A stretch of 63,496 nucleotides of DNA from Actinomycetota bacterium (GTDB lineage: Bacteria; Actinomycetota; Actinomycetes; S36-B12; CAIYMF01). Both the position numbers and the translations under genes were made by a program. A model generated the notes under the pieces. It had not been told where the DNA came from, ran no database searches, and saw only the letters and a program-made list of their open reading frames with translations. Position 1 is the first letter of the stretch. Each line of letters starts with the position of its first letter. Of this stretch, positions 31,738-49,644 are shown piece by piece. The stretch is from assembly GCA_026393115.1 (NCBI GenBank), contig JAPLAU010000002.1:1-63496 (forward strand). The letters are read 5' to 3'.

Positions 31738-32370
31738 CTACTCGGGCACAGGCGGTGGGGCGTTCTTCACCGGCGACCACCACGGGTACGGAAGTCCGGC
31801 CAGTCGGTTGATGATCATGGCCTCAGCCAACAAGACGACGACCGCCACCATCAGGATCAAACCTTGCCGCGGCGTATTCATGACTCCGCACGCAACGATC
31901 AAGGTCGTGGCACCAGCCGGTGCGTGAGGTACCCCCAGCCAAATCATCACCGGAAACGTCAGACACATCGCCACCAGAATGGCTCCGACTCTGCTCCAGG
32001 TGAGGGAATCGATATCCGGAGGAAGGGTCAACAGGCCGAACATCGCCAGAGCGAGGATGCCGGCCACGACGGCGATGAGTTGCCCGCAAAACACGTTGCG
32101 AGGACAGGCCTGCGCGCTGAGCGCCGAGAAGAAGAGGATGAACGCGGTCGGACCGAGAGACGGGAAGAGGAACGGCTCTTGAGTCAGAACCGCCACCACG
32201 GCGAGTAATCCGATGGTGAGCGCCGAGTTGAGCATGACGTAGAGGCCGATGATCAGTCGGCTGTTGTGGCGACTCTCAAGTCTTCCTAAGCGCAGTCTTC
32301 TGGCGAGGCCCTCCACAACGTCAGGAAGCGAACCCAAGTTCGGGTGAGACGCCTGCACCGGCGAACTCAT
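31738..32370 (-). CDS. HPP-family integral membrane protein
   Basis: 210 residues with about five membrane helices. The family motif usually HPP appears as HAPAGATTLIVACG (about 157-170), and FPSLGPTAFILF (about 67-78) is the second conserved element. HPP proteins include nitrite and possibly other anion transporters of chloroplasts and bacteria. ATG 32370 overlaps the upstream gene stop (ATGAG), so it is the last gene of the oxidase/CopD operon. Role here unknown. Confidence 0.82.
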   Translation of the reverse strand: MSSPVQASHPNLGSLPDVVEGLARRLRLGRLESRHNSRLIIGLYVMLNSALTIGLLAVVAVLTQEPFLFPSLGPTAFILFFSALSAQACPRNVFCGQLIAVVAGILALAMFGLLTLPPDIDSLTWSRVGAILVAMCLTFPVMIWLGVPHAPAGATTLIVACGVMNTPRQGLILMVAVVVLLAEAMIINRLAGLPYPWWSPVKNAPPPVPE

Positions 32371-32756
32371 GCGCCCCCTCCCGAGGGGCCGCCTGGCGGC
32401 TGTCTTCGGTTGAGGTCCTGCACGTAGTCCTCCCACGCCTGCAACTGCGGGTCAGGCGGTGCGGCTTCGCTCACCGGCTCGTCGCTTGCAGCAGCCGAAT
32501 ACTCCTCGACGCGTGCCTTCCAGCGCTCAACAAGTCCTTTGGTGATGCTGCCCTCGGTGCGGTAGCGATGCCAAATCCAAATCGACACCACCGCGATCAG
32601 CGGCCACTCAACCATGTAGATCCAGGCGCGCCAGACGCCCTCGCCGGCTCGCCGCACCTCAACGACGGTGAGAACAGTGCAGAGCAGCAGCACAAGAACC
32701 AATGGAACGTGCAACTGCCAGAAGTCTCGGCGTCGACCGCGCGACGGCTCAGCCAT
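32367..32756 (-). CDS. Hypothetical two-helix membrane protein
   Basis: 129 residues. Two membrane helices (about 15-34 and 44-63, the second ending WIWHRYR), then a charged cytoplasmic tail with an alanine/proline-rich end. Small proteins of this type are often found with actinobacterial cytochrome oxidase genes, but I cannot name the family. It overlaps the CopD-type gene by 8 bases and the HPP gene by 4, so it is cotranscribed. Confidence 0.7.
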   Translation of the reverse strand: MAEPSRGRRRDFWQLHVPLVLVLLLCTVLTVVEVRRAGEGVWRAWIYMVEWPLIAVVSIWIWHRYRTEGSITKGLVERWKARVEEYSAAASDEPVSEAAPPDPQLQAWEDYVQDLNRRQPPGGPSGGGA

Positions 32757-34242
32757 GTGCCGGCTCCAACGGCTGCGTTACTGCGACCTCACGCACAGGC
32801 CCCACACCGACAAGCATCACCGACACCACCGCTACCGCCAACGCAAGCACACTCAACCGTACGTCGAACATCTGCGGAAATTGCGCCCGTTCGAAGCCAA
32901 GGGTGACACCCAGCGCGACAACCCATGCTGCGGTGAAAGCACCGCGCGCCAGTTTCGATCGCTCCCCCTGCAGCGCCACCACGCCCAACCACCCACAAGC
33001 GACGAGTACCACTGCGCCAACGACCGCGCCGACGTCGGGGCCGAGCAGCGAACTCAGGACTGCAACTCCGGCCACCTCAACCACGATAATGGCGAGCAGA
33101 ATCGCCACGATCTCGGGGAATTGTTGGGCCCACCGAACCAGCGCTCGATCCGAGGATGGCCGAAGGATCTGAGCGAATGCGGCGGGAAGTGCAGCTGCCA
33201 GCAATGCCAGCATCAAGGGGTTGACCGGAAGCGCCGACGCCGCAGCCGAATCCGGCCCGACGCGTGCCATGGTGACTCCGACCGCCACGGCCGCTCCCAT
33301 GGCGAGGAACTCCCAGCCTGCAATGCGCGCGAGGATGACAACAGACAGCGAGTCAGTTGAGTCAGCTGATTCAGCTGACTCAGCCAATTCCAGCTGCGGC
33401 ATCACTCGCTTGCGCTGCTGCCACCCCAGTGTCACCAGCCACACGATGAGTGTGGCTTTTGCCACGAGCAGTGCTCCGTAGTCCGAGGCAAGGAACTGGG
33501 CCGGTGTCGATGAACGCAGTGACGAGTTGAGCAAACCACTCTCAGCCACAACGACGACACACACGAGGGCCAGGGTACTGAATCGCGGCAGAACGGTTCG
33601 AGCACGCGCGGGGTCAACGCGCAGCCACGCCACCACCACGACGAGTCCGCCTACCCACAGCGACACTGCCGCCAAATGCAGGGCGAGGCTGATCGTCGCG
33701 GCCGCGTGCCCGCCAGAGAGACCACCGTGGCCGAGGAATGCTGGCGCCATCGCGCCACCGAGCGCGCAGGCCAACACCACCCACGCCGTGGGTCGCGAAA
33801 GCACGGCGCGCGACATTGCCAGCACCACCAGCACCGCGATTCCCTGCCACAAAAAGACGCGGCCAACAGAAACGTCAGTGAGGAACGAACCCAGCGCCGC
33901 ACCATCCAGACTCGGGATGACGGCCAGGATGTCAGAGAACGTCAGCACGACTTCCGCTACGAGCGACACCAGCCACACCAGCGCCCACCAGGTAGCCCAG
34001 CCGATCACTCGAGATGACTGGCGCTTCACCAGCAACCCGCCGACGGCGAGTGCGCCCACCGTGATCGCCGCTGCAATATCCCGAATGAAGCGAACGATCG
34101 GCAGCGCAACAGTGGTAAACGCAGGCGGTTGCGGCAACTCCGAACCCCACTGCGGAAGCAGAGCTCCCAGACACGCGAGCAGAACTAACAGCAGGGGGAT
34201 GCCCCACCACAGCCGTCGACTAGCGGCAAACGTCAGCTTCAA
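32749..34242 (-). CDS. CopD-domain copper-handling membrane protein
   Basis: 497 residues with about 12 membrane helices. The first half matches the CopD pattern, with the histidines in FLGHGGLSGGHAAATI and ALHLAAVSLWVGGLVVVV (about 184-222). In many actinobacteria CopD is fused to the CtaG oxidase-assembly domain; here CtaG is separate, at 38556. TTG 34242, at a TTGA overlap with the coxIII stop, gives the natural start KLTFAASRRLWWG. It probably supplies copper for the oxidase encoded in the same operon. Confidence 0.8.
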   Translation of the reverse strand: MKLTFAASRRLWWGIPLLLVLLACLGALLPQWGSELPQPPAFTTVALPIVRFIRDIAAAITVGALAVGGLLVKRQSSRVIGWATWWALVWLVSLVAEVVLTFSDILAVIPSLDGAALGSFLTDVSVGRVFLWQGIAVLVVLAMSRAVLSRPTAWVVLACALGGAMAPAFLGHGGLSGGHAAATISLALHLAAVSLWVGGLVVVVAWLRVDPARARTVLPRFSTLALVCVVVVAESGLLNSSLRSSTPAQFLASDYGALLVAKATLIVWLVTLGWQQRKRVMPQLELAESAESADSTDSLSVVILARIAGWEFLAMGAAVAVGVTMARVGPDSAAASALPVNPLMLALLAAALPAAFAQILRPSSDRALVRWAQQFPEIVAILLAIIVVEVAGVAVLSSLLGPDVGAVVGAVVLVACGWLGVVALQGERSKLARGAFTAAWVVALGVTLGFERAQFPQMFDVRLSVLALAVAVVSVMLVGVGPVREVAVTQPLEPAHG

Positions 34243-34910
34243 TTCTGGAAGGTGCCGAAAGGTGGCGAACTCTGGTTGGGGCTGGCCTTCATCGTGAGAG
34301 TGAACACCGCACCCAGGAGAGCGGCGACACACAGGTAGGTAGCGAACATCGCAATGAACTGGATTTGCGAGGCATTGTCAGGCGCGATGCGTCCAAGGCG
34401 TGCTCGGTTCATCACAGCCGTTGCCAAGAACATCGCCAGACTCAGCCAAATGCAGTTCGCCAGCGCCAGCCATAGCGTGGCCGAGGCATAGGCGCCGTCC
34501 TGAGGGCCGAACGGAAAAGTGGCGATCTGCAGGATCTGCCCGATGAAGCACACCAGGAAGATGAGGGAGGCAAGACCAGCCAGGGCCACACTCGCACCCG
34601 ACTTACCTGCCTGCATCACACGCCAACTACGCCACAACAGCACTGTCGCCAGCACCATGCCCAAGGCGATTGCCCAGAACGGCCAATCATCAGCCCAGTT
34701 AGCTTGGCCTGCTGTCGGTGCCCATCCGCTGCTCACATTGAGCGACCACAGGTAGGAGTACGCGACGAGCAACGCCACTGTTCCAGTTGAGCACGACACG
34801 ATGATGAGCCAGATGCCGAGACGGTTGCGGCGGGCAACCTCAGCGACGGTCTCACCTGTTGTCGGCGAGAGGGGCTCTGGTGCTGCCGTGCCAGTCGTTG
34901 TCGCACTCAT
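34239..34910 (-). CDS. ctaE: Cytochrome c oxidase subunit III-like protein
   Basis: 223 residues with five membrane helices. It follows subunit I with a 4-base overlap. The helix pattern and the WADDWPFWAIALGMVLAT and WLALANCIWLSLAMF segments fit a divergent subunit III, but the well-known EGG and HxxHV-type lipid motifs are not obvious, so the call leans on context. It lacks the two N-terminal helices of a seven-helix subunit III, as in many short bacterial forms. Confidence 0.7.
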   Translation of the reverse strand: MSATTTGTAAPEPLSPTTGETVAEVARRNRLGIWLIIVSCSTGTVALLVAYSYLWSLNVSSGWAPTAGQANWADDWPFWAIALGMVLATVLLWRSWRVMQAGKSGASVALAGLASLIFLVCFIGQILQIATFPFGPQDGAYASATLWLALANCIWLSLAMFLATAVMNRARLGRIAPDNASQIQFIAMFATYLCVAALLGAVFTLTMKASPNQSSPPFGTFQN

Positions 34911-36877
34911 GACGCACCCACCTTCGATACTCCTTCTTTGGCCTGAAGTTCGGCGCTATCCAGCAATTCGTACGGATCGGGAACACCGAAGCCGTAGGGG
35001 TCGGACGTGACCACGGGCAACACGGGGAAGTTCTCGTGCGGAACGGGAGTTTCAGTTTGCGCTTCGAGCGTGTGAGCACCCCACGGGTTTCCTGGTGCCA
35101 ACTTTCCGCTACGCCATGACGTGATCATCGCGTAGAGGAAGATCAGCATGCCGATTCCGATGACGTACGCGCCGATCGTCGAGATCCAGTTCGCAATGTT
35201 GAAGGCCTGGTCGAACTGAAGAACCCGTCGAGGCATTCCCTGAAGGCCTGCAACAAACATGGCGAAGAAGGTCACCTGGAATCCGACGAAGGCGGTCCAG
35301 AAGCCGATGGCACCGATGAGTTCGTCGAGGTAGCGGTTCGTCATCTTCGGGAACCAGTAGGCGATGGCGCCCATGGCTCCGAAGAGTCCGGCACCCATCA
35401 GCATGAAGTGGAAGTGCGCCACAACAAACATGCTGCCGTGCATGTACTGGTCAACGGGAGTGTCCGAGAGGTACACGCCCGTGATTCCGCCAATGACCTT
35501 GTTCCAGATCACCGCGTACACGGCCATCATCGGAAGTTTCATCCACGGCTTGCCGCGCCACATCGTTCCGAGCATCACCAGCAGCAGGAAACTGAAGGGA
35601 ATCGAGATCATCTCAGTCGACATCATGAACGGGTAGTTCGACGACGGCGCCCAACCGGTCATGTACATGTGGTGCACCCACACGACCGCGCTGAGGCCAA
35701 CAATTCCGAAGATGCCCGCGATAGCCAACTTGTAGGAGAACAGCGGCTTACGCAGGAAGACGGGCATGATTTCGAGCAGGGCCGCCGTCGCCGGAATCAC
35801 GATGACGTAGACCTCAGGGTGACCGAGTAGCCAGAAGAGGTTCTCGTACAGCCACACACTTCCGCCGCTTGCGGGCGTATAGAAGGAGGTCTGTAGCATT
35901 CGATCGCTCAGCGCAAGAATCTGCGAGTACTGGAACATGGGGAACCAGATGAGTCCCATGATCGACGAACCGACCACGCCATAGACGAAGATCGGAACAC
36001 GACTCCAGGTCATACCGCGAGCCCTCATCGTGACAACCGTGGTGATGAGGTTGACGCTCGCGATTCCGGTGGAGAACGCGAACACGATGATGCAGATCTG
36101 GTAACCGATCATGCCTACGGGTGCTTGATCAGCCAGCGGTTGGTACACCGTCCAGCCGTCACGGATACCGCCCATGAGCAGGTTGCTCACCAGAGGCGGA
36201 ATGGCCGCGACCAGCAGCCACAGACTCAGTGCGTTCAAGCGCGGGAACGCCATGTCGCGCGCACCACACATGATCGGCACGATGAAGTTACCGAGCGGGC
36301 CGGTCACCGCGATGATCATCGCGATGATCATCACGATGCCGTGCGTACCGATGAGTGAGTTGTAGAAGTTGGGGTTGAACACCTCGGCCCACGTGACGCC
36401 CAGCTCGGTGCGAATGAGCATGGCCAAGAGGCCACCGAGTCCAAAAAGAATCAGCGCCACGATCAGGTACTGAATACCGACGACCTTGTGGTCGGTCGTG
36501 TACTTCCAGAACTTCTTGCGCCCCATGTCCTTACCCGACATGTACTCGGCATCAGCGTGCGTGAGGTCGTGGCCGAGCATCCAGCGGATCGGCCCCGCGA
36601 AGGCACCGATGCCAGCCATGAATCCGATGATCCAGCCGATGTACATCATGGTGATCTGCTGCTGAAGGCCGTCGGGAAGCGAGAGGTTGTTCTGCTGCCC
36701 ACCGCCGGTGACCTTTTGAACAATCGCGCCGGTGATGAAGTAGAAGATCGCGGCCAACACAATTCCGCTGACCACTGCGGTTACGAAGTTTGTGCGGTGC
36801 AGGAAGCCGCCAGGCTTGCCGACCTGCCGAGGCTGCGGCACATGCTTCTGCTCATAAATCACTGCAGTGTCACTCAT
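34907..36877 (-). CDS. ctaD: Cytochrome c oxidase subunit I
   Basis: 656 residues. The catalytic core begins at KYTTDHKVVGIQYL (about residue 147). Low-spin haem histidine in GTHGIVMI (about 203), CuB and the cross-linked tyrosine in LLGHPEVYVIVIP (about 372), HH in VWVHHMYMTGW (about 421), and haem ligands in VVAHFHFMLMG (about 508). About 145 residues with two extra helices precede the core, which is not usual for classical CtaD. ATG 36877 overlaps the subunit II stop; the longer frame lies inside that gene. Confidence 0.93.
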   Translation of the reverse strand: MSDTAVIYEQKHVPQPRQVGKPGGFLHRTNFVTAVVSGIVLAAIFYFITGAIVQKVTGGGQQNNLSLPDGLQQQITMMYIGWIIGFMAGIGAFAGPIRWMLGHDLTHADAEYMSGKDMGRKKFWKYTTDHKVVGIQYLIVALILFGLGGLLAMLIRTELGVTWAEVFNPNFYNSLIGTHGIVMIIAMIIAVTGPLGNFIVPIMCGARDMAFPRLNALSLWLLVAAIPPLVSNLLMGGIRDGWTVYQPLADQAPVGMIGYQICIIVFAFSTGIASVNLITTVVTMRARGMTWSRVPIFVYGVVGSSIMGLIWFPMFQYSQILALSDRMLQTSFYTPASGGSVWLYENLFWLLGHPEVYVIVIPATAALLEIMPVFLRKPLFSYKLAIAGIFGIVGLSAVVWVHHMYMTGWAPSSNYPFMMSTEMISIPFSFLLLVMLGTMWRGKPWMKLPMMAVYAVIWNKVIGGITGVYLSDTPVDQYMHGSMFVVAHFHFMLMGAGLFGAMGAIAYWFPKMTNRYLDELIGAIGFWTAFVGFQVTFFAMFVAGLQGMPRRVLQFDQAFNIANWISTIGAYVIGIGMLIFLYAMITSWRSGKLAPGNPWGAHTLEAQTETPVPHENFPVLPVVTSDPYGFGVPDPYELLDSAELQAKEGVSKVGAS

Positions 36878-42991: not shown

Positions 42992-44167
42992 CTACTCCCG
43001 TCGCAGAATTCGCCGCCCGATGAGGTGCCGACCCTCCGCGATGACTCCAGTCGCAACCTCAGCGATTCCCGAATCCTCGGACAGCCGCTCGGGTGGCAGC
43101 ACCAACTCAGCAGTGTGTCTCATCACGCCGCGCAGCGCCGGTGCATAACGCAGTTGATGTCGATACATCTGGCTCAGCTCACGGGTGGGAACGGCATCGG
43201 CCGACCACAGCGGAAGTAGCGACCACTCATTCCAGAGACGCTGCTGCGCAGCGATATCGGGAGTGCGGGGGCCCGTGAGTTCGGCTAAGCGATTAGCGGG
43301 CACATTCCCGATCAGGCCGTGGGCAAACCCCACCACATCGCCCACCATCCGTCGACAGGCTCGGTTGTGATCGGCGCCGAGTCGCGCGCCCGGCACGCGG
43401 GTGAGTCGCACGACGTCAACCAGTCCACGCAGACGCCCATGTCGATCGAGATAGGTGTGATAGCAGGCGGCGCCGAGTGCGTCACCAGCCGCAAGAGTTG
43501 TCACCGAACCCCCCGCCATGGGCACCTCAACCGAGCGATCGAGTAAGTCTTCGGCAGTGGGCGACAGACGAGGTTCGATGCTGACGCGCCAATGCAGATC
43601 GACATCAACCGGACCGCCGCCATAGTCATGCTCCCGTCGCAGCCAGGATGTCCATGCCCAGCGGACACCGGCGCCGGGAATCCAGCCATCCAGCGCACTC
43701 CATCCTTCGCCCGCAAGGGCTTCGTGAGCGCGCGCTACATCCGACGGAGCGACGAGCAGATCGATATCGCCTGGGCCGCGCGCGCCCACACTTCCCGTGC
43801 TCAACGTGCTCAGTGCGGCACCCTTCAACACCGCCACATGAATACCGGCTGACGACACGGCTTGCCAGGCGCGCAGTGTCTCGTGTGCCAAGCGCATCGC
43901 ACCGACCGAATCACGCATCGCGAGTTGTCGCACCGACCCCGCAAGTGCAGGTGACAAGCCGACCGCTTCGGAATGCAGCGACAGCAATCCCGCAACGCGG
44001 TGGGTTACCACTGCCCTGAGGAATTCGTCGGGTTCAACGTCGCTCAGGGTCGGTGAGGACGCAGGCGGCTCACCGAACTCATCAGCGAGGGCGCACCTCA
44101 CCGCGGTCACCAACTGGTCGACTGCTGCAGGGGTGAGCGGGCGGGCGCGCGAGACGGGTACGACCAT
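42992..44167 (-). CDS. Nucleotidyltransferase family protein (NTP_transf_5-like)
   Basis: 391 residues. The central catalytic pattern VLKGAALSTL, then RGPGDIDLLVAP (about 131-142; GxxDxD), then PVDVDLHWRVS (about 187) matches the uncharacterised nucleotidyltransferase family often encoded with PqqD and HprK-like proteins in peptide-modification loci. It is divergent from the glycosyltransferase that opens the 44.2-49.6 kb cassette, with 51 bases between. ATG 44167 follows GGGGGA; upstream ATG/GTG codons to 44218 have weaker sites. It might nucleotidylate a peptide, a sugar or a protein. Confidence 0.78.
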   Translation of the reverse strand: MVVPVSRARPLTPAAVDQLVTAVRCALADEFGEPPASSPTLSDVEPDEFLRAVVTHRVAGLLSLHSEAVGLSPALAGSVRQLAMRDSVGAMRLAHETLRAWQAVSSAGIHVAVLKGAALSTLSTGSVGARGPGDIDLLVAPSDVARAHEALAGEGWSALDGWIPGAGVRWAWTSWLRREHDYGGGPVDVDLHWRVSIEPRLSPTAEDLLDRSVEVPMAGGSVTTLAAGDALGAACYHTYLDRHGRLRGLVDVVRLTRVPGARLGADHNRACRRMVGDVVGFAHGLIGNVPANRLAELTGPRTPDIAAQQRLWNEWSLLPLWSADAVPTRELSQMYRHQLRYAPALRGVMRHTAELVLPPERLSEDSGIAEVATGVIAEGRHLIGRRILRRE

Positions 44168-44218
44168 TGAGTCCCCCGCACCATCCATGGCCACATCGTA
44201 GGCGGGCATGATAGGCAC

Positions 44219-44971
44219 GTGACTGGCGCGAACTCACCGACGTCCTCACGCGGTCTGTCGGTCATCATCCCGGTCTATGGCAACGTGCTCACTCTTCAGC
44301 GCACCCTTGAGTCCGTCGACTCCGCAGCCCGCGAGGACGCTGGCGACTTTCCGATTGAAATTGTCGTTGTCTTCGACGGACTCATTGACGCCAGTGACGA
44401 ACTGGTCGCCGCGTGGAAACCAAAGTCACCGCGTGCCACACTCTCGGCCCATCACATTGAGCACGGCGGCATTGGCCACGCCCGAAACGCCGGTATCAAG
44501 AACGCACAATTCGAACTGCTCACCTTCCTTGACGCTGACGATGAACTGACGCCTGCGCGTCTAGCGCTCGTGCGACTCGACGATCAGGCACCTGACGAGG
44601 TGGTGATCGGCGTGCAGAGCATTCGCGTTGAGAACAACGCCAGCATTCCAGGGCCCTACGTTCCGACATCGGTCGATGCACCCAGACGCCCGCAGTATTA
44701 CGCCACGTCCATGCTCGTTCGACGAGCGACCATGCTGTCGATCAACGGTTTCGATGAGACTTACGCGGTAGGAGACGACATCGATCTGGTGATGCGACTG
44801 ACCGAATCGGGTGTTCCCGTGCGCATGGTCGACGACATCGTGGTCATTCGATACTTCCACGGTGCCAACGCCTCGTATGATGAGCAGGTCTCAGAGGGGG
44901 ACTTCTTCAAAGCAATTCGCGGCCACATGCGTCGGATTCGGGAGCAGGACGATGGCATACAAGGTCACTGA
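44219..44971 (+). CDS. Family 2 glycosyltransferase (GT-A fold)
   Basis: 250 residues from GTG 44219. The nucleotide-sugar domain starts VIIPVYGNVLTLQRTLESV (about 15-33); the metal motif is FLDADDELT (about 102-110), and the acceptor-side ED-like element is VGDDIDLVMRL (about 184). No membrane anchor. The gene opens a run of six overlapping genes (GT, PqqD-like, HprK-like, GT, degenerate NTase, ABC exporter), so it probably glycosylates a product of this cassette. It overlaps the PqqD gene by 20 bases. Confidence 0.87.
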   Translation: MTGANSPTSSRGLSVIIPVYGNVLTLQRTLESVDSAAREDAGDFPIEIVVVFDGLIDASDELVAAWKPKSPRATLSAHHIEHGGIGHARNAGIKNAQFELLTFLDADDELTPARLALVRLDDQAPDEVVIGVQSIRVENNASIPGPYVPTSVDAPRRPQYYATSMLVRRATMLSINGFDETYAVGDDIDLVMRLTESGVPVRMVDDIVVIRYFHGANASYDEQVSEGDFFKAIRGHMRRIREQDDGIQGH

Positions 44972-45374
44972 CACACACATCAGCCACGACACTCAGGGCA
45001 ACGAGACCGTCGTCATCGATTTCAGCGGTGGCACCTACTACTCGCTGGTCGGCACCGCATCAACGGTCTGGATGCTCGCGGCGTCAGGCATTGGTGATCG
45101 TGCGATCGTCGACATGCTTACCTCCCGCTACGACGGTGATGCCGCGGTCATTGATGAGCAGACCGCTCTCTTCCTGTCAGATCTGGTCGCCCGCGGGCTA
45201 CTGATCGTCAGCACCGCGTCACCCGATGACGCCACCACGACGAGTGCGGCTCGCACCCCGTGGAGCGAGCCGAAACTTGAGGCGTTCAACGACCTGAACG
45301 ACCTCATCTTGATGGACCCCATCCACGACGTTGACGACGCGGGTTGGCCGCACCCCAAGGGTGACGTTGATTGA
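44952..45374 (+). CDS. PqqD-family protein with conserved-looking C-terminal tail
   Basis: 140 residues. The first about 90 are a PqqD/RRE winged-helix fold (VIDFSGGTYYSLVGTAS, then VWMLAASG; later LFLSDLVARGLL), the domain that binds leader peptides in RiPP pathways. A spacer of Ala/Thr follows, then a tail with LEAFNDLNDLILMDPIHD and AGWPHP (about 110-134). The tail is acidic and aromatic and unlike a plain PqqD end. ATG 44952 has GGAGCAGG before it. The gene overlaps its neighbours on both sides. NCBI uses the name 'HPr-rel-A system PqqD family peptide chaperone' for what I take to be relatives. Confidence 0.82.
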   Translation: MAYKVTDTHISHDTQGNETVVIDFSGGTYYSLVGTASTVWMLAASGIGDRAIVDMLTSRYDGDAAVIDEQTALFLSDLVARGLLIVSTASPDDATTTSAARTPWSEPKLEAFNDLNDLILMDPIHDVDDAGWPHPKGDVD

Positions 45375-46384
45375 ATCCGCACGTGCGCGAGTTCCTCGAT
45401 CGAATGCTCGCCCTCACCGCTGAGGCAATGTCGGCTCACCCCGGCTCGCCTGACGTGCGTCGCTTCGGTAGCGCCACGGTCAGCATGCGCTGCACCAATA
45501 CGGCCTTTCGGGGAATCCTGAGCGATGAAATCACCCTGCCGAGGTCGCTGCCATCGGATAGCGATCTGCGCATTGAGGTGTGGGACTGCGCCTCCACCGG
45601 AATTGAGCCACCCGCACTGCCACACTTCGTCGATCCTGCCGCTCCGTATGAATTCGCGGCTGACGGATTCATCATTGATCCCAACGCGGGTAGCGCACTG
45701 ATCTGGGACGAAGCCACCAGGCACGCGGTGCTGTGGGCACGCGACCTCACCCATCCGCCCGAGTGGTACCGAGCTGCACCACTTCGACTGCTTCTCACCA
45801 TTCTCGGACCCCTGGGTGATGCGGTGCTCGTGCACGGCAGCGCCGTGGAATACGAGGGACGCGCCGCTGTGCTGATTGGCGCAAGCGGCTCTGGGAAGTC
45901 GACGACTGCACGCCTCGCCGAACTTGCTGGCGCCACACACTTTGCTGACGATCAAGTAGTTGCCTATCGCCTTGATGGCCGCTTCGTTGCCGATCCGCTG
46001 TACCGCGCGCGCAAGATGCAACTCGACAATGCGCAACTGCCCAACCTCACACCCCACCATGATCTCACCGTCGTTCATACGAGCAGTACCAAAAGTGTGC
46101 TTCGTCCGGTGACACGCACTGAGTTCCCAGCGGCAGTACCCGTTGCAGCACTGATCACCCCCGATCTGAGCAGCGGCGAACCGCTTACCCCTGTGAGTAG
46201 CCCAGCGATGTTCCAGCGACTTCTTCATGCCTGCATGCAAGACGGTGTAGTGAGTGACGCGCGTGTGGCGAGGTCACTGCTGTCACTCGCCCAAGGCGTC
46301 GCGTGCCTGTCACTCGGACTCGCTCGGCCGACCGACGACATCGCCTCGGATGTGCTCACTTTCCTTGGTGGCCACCATGGGTGA
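45371..46384 (+). CDS. HprK-related P-loop kinase
   Basis: 337 residues from TTG 45371 (TTGA overlap with the PqqD gene). After a N-terminal domain of about 150 residues comes VLVHGSAVEYEGRAAVL, then GASGSGKSTTARLA (Walker A, about 170-178) and HFADDQVVAY (about 193-202), the acidic motif that follows the P-loop in HPr kinase. True HprK phosphorylates HPr Ser46; relatives in peptide clusters phosphorylate a peptide. The HPr in this window is 39 kb away, so it is not an obvious substrate. It overlaps the second GT gene by 8 bases. Confidence 0.82.
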   Translation: MNPHVREFLDRMLALTAEAMSAHPGSPDVRRFGSATVSMRCTNTAFRGILSDEITLPRSLPSDSDLRIEVWDCASTGIEPPALPHFVDPAAPYEFAADGFIIDPNAGSALIWDEATRHAVLWARDLTHPPEWYRAAPLRLLLTILGPLGDAVLVHGSAVEYEGRAAVLIGASGSGKSTTARLAELAGATHFADDQVVAYRLDGRFVADPLYRARKMQLDNAQLPNLTPHHDLTVVHTSSTKSVLRPVTRTEFPAAVPVAALITPDLSSGEPLTPVSSPAMFQRLLHACMQDGVVSDARVARSLLSLAQGVACLSLGLARPTDDIASDVLTFLGGHHG

Positions 46385-47060
46385 CATCTCGGTGGTGATG
46401 GCGGCTTTCAACGCGGCGTCAACGATCGCGCGCAGTCTCACCTCAGTACTCGATCAAACCCTGCCGCCTTTCCGAGTGATCGTGATCGATGACGGATCGA
46501 CCGACCACACCGTCGATATCGCACGAGGCTTCGGCGATGTTGAGGTTGTCTCGATTGATCACGCGGGACCCGGCGCGGCACTCAATGCAGGTTTCGCCCT
46601 CGTCGATTCCGAGTTCGTCGCGGTGCTCGACAGTGACGACCTATGGCCGCGCGACCGTTTGGCCGTGCACCGTGAGGCGTTCGGCGATGCGCCGTCGGCC
46701 GACATCGCGCTAGGAACCACCCTCAACGTCACCGATACTTCCGGCTTTGAATCAGTTGACGACGTCGAACAAGCCGTTTCTACTACGGGCTCCGAGCCCG
46801 TGATGAGTCGCCTCCCCGGTGCGATGACTGTGCGCAGTCGAGCGCTGCCGCTACTCGGGCCCATTCGCACCGACGTCGCTCACGCTGCAACTACGGCCTG
46901 GATCTCAAGCCCCGCGGCCCAAGCTTTGAATACCGTCGAAATCGATTCCATTGCGCTCTACCGCATGATCCACGGCAACAACATGGGTGTCACCGACGCA
47001 GCGCAGGCACGCCAAGACTGGCTCCTTCTGGTGCGCCAACGCATTCAGGAACAGCGGTGA
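46377..47060 (+). CDS. Family 2 glycosyltransferase (GT-A fold)
   Basis: 227 residues. SVVMAAFNAASTIARSL (about 5-21), VIVIDDGSTDHT (about 34-45) and the metal motif AVLDSDDLWPRDRL (about 81-94) are standard GT2 elements. The last third is short and lacks a membrane anchor. This second glycosyltransferase differs from the 44.2 kb one, so two different sugars or two sites may be involved. It overlaps the downstream gene by 4 bases. Confidence 0.87.
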   Translation: MGDISVVMAAFNAASTIARSLTSVLDQTLPPFRVIVIDDGSTDHTVDIARGFGDVEVVSIDHAGPGAALNAGFALVDSEFVAVLDSDDLWPRDRLAVHREAFGDAPSADIALGTTLNVTDTSGFESVDDVEQAVSTTGSEPVMSRLPGAMTVRSRALPLLGPIRTDVAHAATTAWISSPAAQALNTVEIDSIALYRMIHGNNMGVTDAAQARQDWLLLVRQRIQEQR

Positions 47061-47905
47061 ACCCGACTCCCATTCTCGGCATCTCCGACGGCGATCTTCC
47101 GGTGCTGGCGGCGTGCGTTTGCGAAAGTGCCGCGGCGTGGAGCAGTTGGCAATCGTGGCGAGCGAGGCCCAACTTCGAAGAGTCATCCGCTCGTTCACTG
47201 GCACTACTTCCCGCGATTCGGCACCACCTACTGCCCACCCACCCCGAAGCAGTCGAAGACACCTACCTGCGCAGTTCGCAGCGTTCCTGCTGGGCAACCA
47301 CCACGCTGCTCGCCCACGAGGCAGCTCCCGTGCTGCGCACGCTCGATACCCCTGCACCGGTCGTGAGGGGATTCGCCGCCATGCTGCGCAACGGTGATTT
47401 CGGAAGTCGCACCTGCGCAGCACTCGACATCGCTGCCTCACCGGCTTCCTATGCCGCCACCGTCGCGCACTTCACCGATCACGAGTGGGTTGTTGAAGGC
47501 CGCACCGCACTTCCACACTCACTTCGCCGGCGACGCGCCCTCACTCGCGGTGAGACGCTGTTTCGCCGATCAACCGGGGCTGCGGTGCGGGTACATTGGG
47601 TCGACCTCATCGATACCGATTCCGACCTGAGGGAACTCGACGGCGCCGACGTTCTCCTTCCGAGCCCCGTCACCAGCGCTGTTTTCGCACTCGACTACGC
47701 AACGCGACAGCCCGCCGCTGACGGACTGGTGGGAATCGTGGATGTCGTCGAGCATCTCTTTGCCGCCACACCCGACGCCCTCGCAGAGGCCGCACGGCGA
47801 GATGGGCTCTGGCCCACGCTGGCCGAAGTTGCCTCCGTGCTGCGTCGGGTCGACGCCCTCGCCCCACTGACACCGGCGGCCCACTACCTCGCGCGTAGCC
47901 TGTGA
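47057..47905 (+). CDS. Degenerate nucleotidyltransferase-like protein
   Basis: 282 residues from GTG 47057. Its layout follows the nucleotidyltransferase at 42992-44167: a helical start, LLAHEAAPVLRTLDTPAPVV where the active relative has the VLKG strand, then CAALDIAASPASY at the position of the GDIDLLV motif, and AAVRVHWVDLID in place of VDVDLHWRVS. The paired catalytic aspartates are therefore lost. It is best read as a non-catalytic paralogue or a scaffold. The similarity was judged by eye and is weak overall. Confidence 0.5.
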   Translation: MNPTPILGISDGDLPVLAACVCESAAAWSSWQSWRARPNFEESSARSLALLPAIRHHLLPTHPEAVEDTYLRSSQRSCWATTTLLAHEAAPVLRTLDTPAPVVRGFAAMLRNGDFGSRTCAALDIAASPASYAATVAHFTDHEWVVEGRTALPHSLRRRRALTRGETLFRRSTGAAVRVHWVDLIDTDSDLRELDGADVLLPSPVTSAVFALDYATRQPAADGLVGIVDVVEHLFAATPDALAEAARRDGLWPTLAEVASVLRRVDALAPLTPAAHYLARSL

Positions 47906-49644
47906 CCGTGGACGAGCGCGAGGAGCCGACGTTTCGCGAGCTCATGGGCGATGTCGGCACACTCATCGGGGAGGCGTGGCGCCTCGATCCTGGCCGCCTG
48001 ATTCTGCAAGTGTTTCTGCTCGGAATGAGTGGCATCATCGGTGGAATCGGGCTGCTACTGCTCATTCCGATCGTCAACTCAGTTGCCGATCCTTCGGCCA
48101 GCATCACCGTGCCGTTCTTCGGTGCGATGTCACTGGGCAGCATTCCGCTCTCCGCACTTCTTGGCGCCTTCGTCGTGCTCACGGTGATTCAGGCGCTCAT
48201 CATGCGTAGTTCGCAGGTGAACACCACTCGCATGCAGCAGGAGATCGTCGACCGAATGCGAGGCGATGCATTCGACGCAGTACTCGCGGCGCGATGGGAC
48301 TTCATTCTGCAACGACGACGCAGTGATGTGATCGAGATCGTCACCACCGGCGCAGCACGTTCGGGCATGGCGTTTCAACAGCTACTTCAAGGTGCCGTTA
48401 CCGCGATGCTCGCTGCCGTCACCGCACTCGTCGCACTGGCCGTGTCACCAGCGGTTGTTGGCGTCGCATTGCTCGGAGTCGTGTTAGTGGCGGGCCTGCG
48501 ACTTCTCGGTGTGCGCCCTTCGTATCGCCTTGGCATCATGTTCGGCGAACGCAACCGTCATCTGCAATCGGTCATGGCCGACTCGATGGATTCACTGCGC
48601 CTCATTCGTGCCCACGATGCGTCTCCCGTATGGAACCGCCGCCTCACCGACGCGTTCACCGACGCGCGCGAAGTGCAGCTGGCCAGCACCCGCCGCCAAT
48701 CAACGGTCGCCGCGGTGTCGTCGGTTGCCCTTGCTGCGGCCGCAGCGATCCTCGTGTTGCTCGCGGTCAGACTCAACGTTCCGGCAACGTCGATTGTCGT
48801 GATCTTGCTGCTCGTCGCCCGCCTCACTGGGCAGGTGCAGCAACTCGCCACCACCGTGAACCTGCTCGCGACCTTCCTCCCCAGCGTCACCGACCTGACG
48901 TCACTCGCCGAACAGGCACGCCTCGCCGCCGAAGTTCCCGAAGGTTCGGAATCATTGCGTCCGATTGATCCGCCCAACCCCAGCACGGCGCTGCTCGACT
49001 TCCGCAATGTCGGATTCCGCTATCCCAACAGCGACAACGGAGTTGAGGGTCTGACCTTCATCGTGCCGCGCGGTGCAGTCACTGCCCTCATGGGTCACTC
49101 AGGTGCGGGTAAATCGACCACCGCCGACCTCGCGCTCGGACTGCTCGCACCGAGCACCGGCGAGCTACTTGTTGACGGAATCGCGTTGGCGCCAGCCGAT
49201 CTTCGCTGGTGGCGTCACCACGTGGCCTATGTGCCACAGGAAACGGTGCTACTTCCCGGAACACTGCGCGACAACCTCGTGTGGTCGACACCGCGCGCGA
49301 TTTCCGATGAGCAGTGCTGGTCGGCACTCGACCGATCAGCGGCCACCTTCGCCCGCGATCTTCCTGCTGGTCTCGACACTCGACTCGGTGACCGCGGACT
49401 ACGACTTTCCGGCGGTGAACGTCAGCGAGTGGCCATCGCTCGCGCATTGCTGCGCGAGCCGAGCCTGCTCGTACTCGATGAAGCCACGTCGTCACTCGAT
49501 GATGAGACCGAATCGGCCGTGCTTGATCTCATCGTGCATCTCGTGCCGGCGGTGACTGTTCTGGTCATCGCACACCGACAATCGACTCTCGAAGCAGCCG
49601 ATCATGTGGTGCGACTTGCACGCGGTTCTGTGTCGCTCGACTGA
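47902..49644 (+). CDS. ABC exporter (fused permease and ATPase)
   Basis: 580 residues. Six membrane helices in the first about 330, then the ATPase: Walker A GHSGAGKSTTADLALG (about 396-411), Q-loop YVPQETVLLPG (about 441), signature LSGGERQRVAIA (about 505), Walker B LLVLDEATSSLDD (about 525-537), and the switch histidine in IAHRQST. Type IV exporters of this form move lipids, peptides or drugs outward. GTG 47902 overlaps the previous stop. As last gene of the cassette it likely exports the modified product. There is no N-terminal C39 peptidase domain. Confidence 0.9.
   Translation: MTVDEREEPTFRELMGDVGTLIGEAWRLDPGRLILQVFLLGMSGIIGGIGLLLLIPIVNSVADPSASITVPFFGAMSLGSIPLSALLGAFVVLTVIQALIMRSSQVNTTRMQQEIVDRMRGDAFDAVLAARWDFILQRRRSDVIEIVTTGAARSGMAFQQLLQGAVTAMLAAVTALVALAVSPAVVGVALLGVVLVAGLRLLGVRPSYRLGIMFGERNRHLQSVMADSMDSLRLIRAHDASPVWNRRLTDAFTDAREVQLASTRRQSTVAAVSSVALAAAAAILVLLAVRLNVPATSIVVILLLVARLTGQVQQLATTVNLLATFLPSVTDLTSLAEQARLAAEVPEGSESLRPIDPPNPSTALLDFRNVGFRYPNSDNGVEGLTFIVPRGAVTALMGHSGAGKSTTADLALGLLAPSTGELLVDGIALAPADLRWWRHHVAYVPQETVLLPGTLRDNLVWSTPRAISDEQCWSALDRSAATFARDLPAGLDTRLGDRGLRLSGGERQRVAIARALLREPSLLVLDEATSSLDDETESAVLDLIVHLVPAVTVLVIAHRQSTLEAADHVVRLARGSVSLD

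Follow-up and report, generated by a model that had tools for sequence, protein, structure and literature searches.

What do the enzymes of a peptide-modification cassette act on when no gene for a precursor peptide lies among them? This question is raised by positions 42992-49644 of a 63,496-nucleotide stretch of contig JAPLAU010000002.1 (assembly GCA_026393115.1, Actinomycetota bacterium; the whole stretch is called the window below). These positions hold seven open reading frames (ORFs), encoding a PqqD-family protein that contains a recognition element (RRE) for ribosomally synthesized and post-translationally modified peptides (RiPPs), an HprK-like kinase, two NTP_transf_5-type nucleotidyltransferase-like proteins, two family 2 glycosyltransferases (GT2s) and an ATP-binding cassette (ABC) exporter. 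At its C-terminus the PqqD protein bears a tail, WxxPxL…DLxDLILxDPIHDVDxxGWP, which resembles a leader plus a core and is probably the answer to the lacking precursor gene. The evidence points to this tail as an acceptor or docking peptide built into the protein. The best reading of the cassette places it closest to the LPP and paeninodin-like phospho- or glyco-peptide systems, with the acceptor carried in cis by the RRE. We tentatively give just under an even chance to a system for RRE-dependent phosphorylation/glycosylation of a peptide in which the acceptor and the RRE form one protein. In precursor-less RiPP-like loci with kinase and NTP-transferase genes the substrate is not obvious; the conserved RRE tail is a definite candidate, which makes substrate, site and chemistry testable with a few purified proteins.

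Anatomy of the PqqD protein

In the PqqD protein (140 aa; 44952-45374, + strand; PF05402, E = 2.9e-10), a linker connects a lasso-B1-type RRE to a leader-like [WFY]xxPxL segment, and the strongly conserved D-[LM]-x-D-L-L-x-x-D-P-I-H-[DE]-V-...-G-W-P follows. The RRE occupies residues 1-87 (44952-45212, + strand), as delimited by an AlphaFold model and fold comparison. The model, computed with a 104-row alignment, had a mean predicted local distance difference test (pLDDT) score of 87.3, with strands within residues 2-33 and three helices within residues 35-80. Its nearest folds were TbiB1-leader complexes (Z 12.9, root mean square deviation (rmsd) 1.4-2.5, 84-88 residues aligned), and TfuB1 (6jx3) was also close (Z 11.2). 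The PF05402 match, the winged-helix fold and the similarity to TbiB1 together identify the domain as an RRE.

The leader-like segment W104-S-E-P-K-L-E-A-F112 (45261-45287, + strand) carries a [YWF]xxPx[LVI] motif and is followed by the conserved core NDLNDLILMDPIHDVDDAGWP (residues 113-133; 45288-45350, + strand), delimited from the alignment and the AlphaFold model. Residues 101-110 had a mean pLDDT of 97 in the model, in which residues 109-112 form a strand and residues 115-119 a short helix. As an assigned strand needs a partner, strand 109-112 would pair with the RRE sheet, and modelling supports an arrangement in which the leader-like segment folds back onto the RRE of the same chain, in the manner of lasso leaders acting in trans, and DPIH...GWP stays free. 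Model confidence was lower in the core (10-residue blocks with mean pLDDT 73, 57 and 65, the last two being residues 121-140 with the DPIH…GWP part), so that residues 113-133 are probably exposed.

Conservation was assessed in alignment A4, which comprises the window protein and 103 proteins from the pattern scan described below, one truncated row (L043) having been dropped. DPIH[DE] and GWP are invariant in A4 by construction, being imposed by the DNA pattern, and the conserved positions beyond the pattern are D114 (94/104), L118 (89/104) and V127 (92/104). Profile searches in Actinomycetota turned up the tail variants GWA, DPVH, EGF and DGL. A leader-like motif, [FYWH]xxPx[LVIFAM], precedes the core in 61 of the 104 tails, compared with 6.5 expected when each 22-residue stretch was shuffled, and all 61 motifs begin with F, Y or W. 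The resulting [FYW]xxPx motif resembles the leader motif bound by discrete lasso RREs, as described in a report on LPPs (PMC13381572).

Distribution of the tail among bacteria

A protein search of 60 related genomes, including the source genome, yielded 12 PqqD matches in seven genomes with a query that contained the tail and was thereby biased towards tail-bearing matches. The best eight (E ≤ 1.4e-9, six genomes) carry the DPIH...GWP tail; although identity to the window protein is 27-31%, apart from one protein at 81%, D-x4-DPIH and GWP are present in all eight aligned sequences.

A degenerate DNA pattern for DPIH[DE]x4-5GWP, tried first on the loci and the window (0 matches expected in window shuffles), was then scanned through species genomes and matched at least 119 stretches. 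Among the matches listed, 116 were in frame, 104 of them at the C-terminus of PqqD-like proteins and 12 in DNA polymerase I. The 104 listed tail-bearing proteins are about 140-150 aa long with DPIH 14-33 residues from the end, and PF05402 was matched by 91 of the 104 A4 proteins (E ≤ 1e-3). RREs with a fused tail occur in about 13 phyla: among the matches listed (L024-L103), these were Pseudomonadota, Bacillota, Planctomycetota, Gemmatimonadota, Cyanobacteriota, Actinomycetota, Bacteroidota, Chloroflexota, Chlamydiota, Verrucomicrobiota, Acidobacteriota, Nitrospirota and Thermodesulfobacteriota (13 in all), assigned from record titles, many of which belong to metagenome bins, so that single labels may be wrong. 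A search of a plasmid collection with one Mesorhizobium member gave no match at E ≤ 1e-5.

The internal DPIHEV...GWP of DNA polymerase I was seen in L027, L067, L088, L090 and eight further loci, with Variovorax among the sources; the protein was identified by eye from its sequence, with no family search. This is a chance match to the tail motif.

Genes that accompany the tail

Neighbouring genes were counted at 110 tail loci (L091, on the same contig as L017, excluded), using kinase, GT2, NTP_transf_5 and ABC profiles that had been seeded with the window proteins and iterated on the very loci counted. Within 4 kb of the tail, the kinase was found at 98 loci, GT2 at 86, NTP_transf_5 at 65 and the ABC exporter at 23, and at no locus were all four partners missing. 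Of the 39 loci flanked by 2.5 kb or more on each side, 36 have the kinase, 34 have GT2 and none lacks both. Searched with the same profiles, the 15 controls from the scan (12 polA loci, three out of frame) had no partner at all. A kinase-containing frame lay within 150 bp on the same strand at 82 of the 110 tail loci.

Co-occurrence was also scored at genome level, from the best few first-look candidates per genome. Among 396 Actinomycetota genomes, six matched the kinase profile at E ≤ 3.1e-72 (next genome, 1.7e-36), and the same six matched a 41-position tail profile at E ≤ 1.7e-9 (next, 0.0056), with the tail-PqqD gene adjacent to the kinase gene in all six. Among the hits below the six true ones, which had E ≥ 0.0056, no stand-alone tail lacking the PqqD fusion was recognised at a convincing E value in these 396 genomes. 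At the five loci other than the window, GT2s stand beside the tail-PqqD and kinase genes, and NTP_transf_5 was found in four. In a second class of 240 genomes, that of a Bauldia locus, the tail (E ≤ 0.01) was found in five genomes and the kinase (E ≤ 1e-49) in four, all within those five; the match between tail and kinase is looser there and the tail profile less sharp than in Actinomycetota.

Over 58 pairs, pairwise kinase distances correlated with those of the RRE (r = 0.81) and of the tail (r = 0.72), no value as high being reached in 2000 permutations, and for distant kinase pairs the correlations dropped to 0.39 (RRE) and 0.43 (tail); these correlations partly reflect species relatedness. 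GT2s are nearly as regular partners of the tail as the kinase is, and since there are tail loci with GT2s and no kinase found, the tail is not a kinase-only element. At L248, L249 and L029, GT2 genes directly adjoin the tail-PqqD gene with no kinase found nearby, and L029 also has an asparagine-synthase-like ORF (identified by eye).

The regularity of the GT2s, present at 86 of 110 loci and also where the kinase was not found, would suit a pathway that makes or decorates a surface glycan: a short oligosaccharide would be assembled and flipped by the GT2s and the ABC protein, with sugar activation by the NTP_transf_5 proteins and with the PqqD protein and kinase regulating or carrying it. GT1/GT4-type enzymes and sulfotransferases occur among the neighbouring ORFs, and the founding LPP clusters are embedded in capsular polysaccharide loci, according to the LPP report (PMC13381572). 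We nevertheless regard such a pathway as improbable: it leaves an RRE with a leader-like tail unexplained, and the ABC exporter lies within 4 kb at only 23 of the 110 loci. In a Pfam tally of the neighbours (84 of 126 ORFs listed, out of 252 candidates; 81 families found), no polysaccharide polymerase or Wzx-type flippase was among the 25 families listed.

Properties of the other cassette proteins

The kinase (45371-46384, + strand) matched Hpr_kinase_C below the cutoff (E = 0.006), and a profile of 31 family sequences found HPr kinases in the PDB (best E = 8.6e-9). Its AlphaFold model matched phosphoenolpyruvate (PEP) carboxykinases over the whole length (Z 18.1, rmsd 4.4, 304 residues aligned); none of the 50 fold matches listed was an HPr kinase entry, all but one being titled PEP carboxykinase or its complex. 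HPr kinase and PEP carboxykinase share one fold. The putative catalytic residues H155, P-loop K176 and D193-D194 are present, with H155 in 73/73, K176 in 72/72 and D194 in 71/72 letters of the family alignment. Fold, HPr kinase profile match and catalytic His/Lys/Asp-Asp set thus mark the protein as a kinase of the HprK/PEP carboxykinase fold.

The first NTP_transf_5 protein (42992-44218, − strand; PF14907, E = 1.7e-30), encoded divergently from the operon, agrees in alignment with the family majority at K132-G133, R147, D151-x-D153 and H209. The divergent paralogue (47057-47905, + strand) was recognised from alignment and a Pfam match below the cutoff (E = 0.022). As the first Asp of its DxD is Ala122 in the alignment, it is probably non-catalytic, either a pseudo-enzyme or a partner subunit, and the partner may be the first NTP_transf_5 protein. 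Both GT2s (44219-44971, + strand, motif DADD, Pfam E = 2e-18; 46377-47060, + strand, motif DSDD, Pfam E = 5.6e-29) retain a DxD-type motif in their sequences. The exporter (47902-49644, + strand; ABC_tran, E = 1.4e-30) is a permease-ATPase fusion of the MsbA/HepA-like type, in which no C39 peptidase domain was matched. The original prediction, which had named these seven protein types, is borne out by Pfam, weakly and below the cutoff for the kinase and the second NTP_transf_5 protein.

A second PqqD-like protein, 417 aa as called, is encoded elsewhere in the same genome (L020:7866-10008, contig C27), divergently from an HprK-like kinase gene. We take its C-terminal part to resemble a TylF-type methyltransferase. 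The arrangement recurs in L021, from the same genus.

Relation to known systems

As described in the report on the Paenibacillus alginolyticus lpp cluster, the LPP-defining core includes an RRE, an HprK-like kinase, an NTP transferase and an MsbA-like exporter (PMC13381572). The cassette contains the same enzyme set, its NTP transferase being likened by enzyme type, and shares with LPP clusters the glycosyltransferase-rich surroundings, the lack of a cyclase and a leader motif akin to [Y/W]xxPx[L/V/I/F/A] (PMC13381572). LPP clusters differ in having an SpI peptidase and one to three separate precursors, with a phosphorylated Ser in the one studied (PMC13381572). The seven cassette proteins matched no peptidase family in Pfam, SpI-like leader peptidases included. 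No small ORF at 36-56 kb of the window (those overlapping larger genes by >40% excluded) fitted the LPP precursor YxxPxVLxHQxIxFETxxS with its acceptor Ser; instead, the RRE carries a fused, near-invariant tail with no conserved Ser. As these two LPP features, the SpI peptidase and the separate Ser-bearing precursor, fail, the cassette was classed as an LPP variant and not as a member.

A second resemblance is to the paeninodin-like lasso and pseudomycoidin systems (PadeK/ThcoK, PsmK, PsmN), which combine a lasso-B1-type RRE, a His-Lys-Asp-Asp kinase and a nucleotidyltransferase (PMC9266682). According to that review, lasso kinases need the His-Lys-Asp-Asp set, and PsmN, annotated as a nucleotidyltransferase, is reported to add hexoses to the phosphorylated Ser, with a host enzyme left open as the alternative (PMC9266682). 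The cassette kinase family conserves His, Lys and Asp-Asp, which would be positionally equivalent to those of PadeK/ThcoK. The cassette differs in having no B2 protease, no lasso cyclase and no precursor ending in Ser; neither a B2 protease nor an Asn-synthetase-like cyclase was matched in its seven proteins (Pfam).

Decay of a lasso or LPP cluster, with peptidase and precursor lost and the tail inert, might be suspected from the lasso-B1-like RRE and from the second NTP_transf_5 protein, which lacks one active-site Asp. It is very unlikely, as decay would not give the same architecture and tail over about 13 phyla with conserved kinase motifs.

PQQ and mycofactocin are also made by RRE-dependent systems, with an invariant core and a fixed product, from a separate precursor and with radical SAM enzymes. 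The seven cassette proteins include neither a separate precursor nor a radical SAM enzyme.

The original prediction had also attached the NCBI name HPr-rel-A to the PqqD protein and kinase. The likeness lies in an HprK-related kinase encoded beside a PqqD-family protein, and HprK_rel_A is the only NCBIfam match of the kinase at E ≤ 1e-3 (E = 8.7e-5). However, the kinase scored 21.7 bits against TIGR04352, for which the cutoff is 200, and the PqqD protein had no TIGR04353 match at E ≤ 0.1; its best NCBIfam matches were the lasso PqqD models, below cutoff. At E ≤ 1e-3, 79 of the 104 A4 proteins match lasso_PqqD_Bac and nine match TIGR04353, and the 31 family kinases match HprK_rel_B (24) and hpr-ser (16) alongside HprK_rel_A (30, best 5.5e-12). 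With its proteins far below the curated cutoffs and its family marked by the tail, the cassette is, on these profile scores, a relative of the HPr-rel families and not an HPr-rel-A member, and we see hardly any chance, the slightest among the alternatives, that it is an HPr-rel-A system with a separate peptide. The HPr-rel-A label is therefore dropped, and the predicted frame of a RiPP-like modification and export cassette stands, through the enzyme set shared with the LPP core.

A literature search on HPr-rel-A, the DPIH tail motif and PF14907/NTP_transf_5, with subscription journals and preprints mostly outside its coverage, found no paper, and one of the same coverage on RRE-precursor fusions and on PqqD/HprK/glycosyltransferase systems showed nothing on the DPIH...GWP tail in titles or abstract openings. 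Anti-phage defence found no support: PADLOC at E ≤ 1e-5 returned only a partial match of the ABC protein to mad3 and none for the other six proteins.

Search for a separate precursor and the sister kinase tier

A comparison of cassettes for a co-occurring small peptide, as the original prediction had proposed, was run on 1708 small ORFs around 110 loci (window included, two redundant loci left out), and an ORF was passed over if it overlapped a larger gene by >40%. No conserved precursor family was recognisable among the 15 largest groups listed: one consisted of GT2 fragments (eight loci), and the others were confined to L041, L065, L085, L106 and L113, the three of these with titles being Mesorhizobium. 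The leader motif [YW]xxPx[LVIFA], tested with [YW] and not F at its first position, was not enriched (39 of 1708 small ORFs, 53 expected), and no small ORF outside larger genes at 36-56 kb of the window carried it under the same overlap limit. These results agree with the predicted absence of a separate precursor, and that of a radical SAM enzyme or lasso cyclase likewise holds for the seven cassette proteins and the small ORFs outside larger genes.

Kinase loci of a sister tier (E 1.7e-36 to 6.8e-25) are arranged differently. At seven of 15 fetched loci, one to three small peptides reading …PYAKPELVKHENLKEITFECxxWQCSVVVP… are encoded near the kinase, and the leaders of these separate peptides are in register with the tail. 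These loci (L178, L179, L180, L181, L182, L183 and L185) are from Actinomycetota genomes. In six of the seven genomes a tail-less PqqD protein is encoded at another fetched kinase locus; at the one locus examined (L188), it stands beside a transglutaminase-like protein of B2 type. In these genomes this is apparently a split phospho-peptide or lasso-type system, and as precursor-like peptides and tail-less PqqD proteins are found at separate kinase loci, split systems seem to exist.

The main alternative to an acceptor tail gains from this tier. The tail could be a docking element or scaffold only, with DPIH...GWP recruiting the kinase and GT2s, and the leader-like segment acting as a displaceable plug of the RRE groove. 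The true precursor would then be the product of a gene at some other place in the genome, as the sister loci with their peptides and tail-less PqqD proteins would suggest. We consider this somewhat unlikely: near the 110 loci no conserved small ORF was recognised and the leader motif was not in excess, the inserted cassette (see below) carries no precursor gene, and an RRE groove filled in cis would compete with a leader supplied in trans.

Proposed function of the tail

Under the favoured reading, in which the acceptor is part of the RRE protein, the DPIH...GWP segment may be the platform for kinase and GT2 action. The kinase would phosphorylate, by analogy with LppK/PadeK, and the NTP_transf_5 protein and its degenerate paralogue, by analogy with PsmN, would attach a sugar to the phosphate or activate it. 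The GT2s would then extend the glycan, and the ABC protein would export the product or glycoconjugate. All 104 A4 tails have some Ser or Thr from residue 90 on. As the tail has no conserved Ser/Thr, the acceptor could be its Asp, His or Trp, a non-conserved linker Ser/Thr or a tail-bound group; any conserved modified site would have to be Asp, His or Trp, and the Ser chemistry of LPP and paeninodin is not directly transferable.

Several observations weigh against an acceptor in cis. Concerning the tail itself, the lack of a conserved Ser/Thr sets it apart from LPP and paeninodin cores: S/T/Y are absent after DPIH in 36 of 104 tails and from residue 112 on in 15. It is also near-invariant and present in one copy per locus, whereas RiPP cores typically vary; a docking element would fit these traits just as well. 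The seven cassette proteins include no peptidase (Pfam) to release a core. The leader-like motif is absent from 43 of the 104 tails, including those of Mesorhizobium and several Bacillota; hhalign related the tail to separate lasso-type leaders with a probability of only 4% (E = 0.01), which was not used as proof; and cis docking is a monomer prediction, with domain swapping a possible outcome. Concerning distribution, the four weakest of the 12 PqqD matches in the 60 related genomes (E 2.4e-8 to 5.7e-5) are tail-less, and the kinase was not found within 4 kb at 12 of the 110 tail loci. In single genomes, a 3.7-kb contig (G467) carries the tail, two GT2s and NTP_transf_5 with no kinase found, and a second tail locus of G642 has two GT2s and no kinase found; G455 has a second kinase with NTP_transf_5 and no tail within the 10 kb fetched, and the tail of G627 is divergent. 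Radical SAM families matched four of the 84 neighbouring ORFs scanned, so some relatives may use other chemistry.

A broader proposal is possible, which we hold with clear reserve: a RiPP-like class, spread over about 13 phyla, in which recognition domain and precursor are one protein. The RRE would hold the leader in cis and offer the near-invariant DPIH[DE]V...GWP core to the kinase and glycosyltransferases. Modification would be through Asp, His or Trp and not Ser, and the product would be one fixed conjugate of phospho- or glyco-type, either cofactor-like or bound to a carrier. In a 2025 survey of RREs, 21% of the PF05402-matching proteins exceed the size of a discrete RRE with no other Pfam annotation (PMC12710340), and the tail-PqqD family could account for part of that oversized set.

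Genetic organization and insertion site of the cassette

All seven ORFs of the original prediction were found at the coordinates given above. The rightward six genes overlap by 20, 4, 8, 4 and 4 bp, and the leftward NTP_transf_5 gene abuts the first GT2 gene head to head. From the sequence, the likely starts are the ATG at 44952 for the PqqD protein (140 aa) and the ATG at 46377 for the second GT2.

The cassette is flanked by a zincin-like metallopeptidase gene (42613 to at most 43056, − strand; start uncertain) and by a tRNA-Glu gene (49795). Of 30 genomes, including the source genome, 22 gave a match to the zincin protein. In eight of 11 stretches from relatives, 67-159 bp separate the aligned zincin start from tRNA-Glu and the site is empty; in two, the distance is about 1.1 kb and the arrangement different, and in one there is no tRNA in the stretch. 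No cassette gene was detected in these 11 stretches by tblastn at E ≤ 1e-8, except for a distant ABC match in one. In a genome of the same genus (G001), the kinase, PqqD, GT2 and NTP_transf_5 genes adjoin the same zincin gene, and the contig ends at the kinase. The empty site in eight of 11 relatives and the arrangement in G001 indicate that the seven genes were acquired, or retained, as a single unit. The objection that the genes might not travel together is answered by this discrete insertion and by the correlated distances of kinase, RRE and tail. The other objection foreseen in the original prediction, a cell-wall polymer role for the glycosyltransferases and exporter, keeps some probability.

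Promoter-like sites numbered 2, with 1.1 expected, and terminator-like sites 0, with 3.0 expected. The AT skew was unusual over window positions 32001-36000 (0.28 and 0.18).

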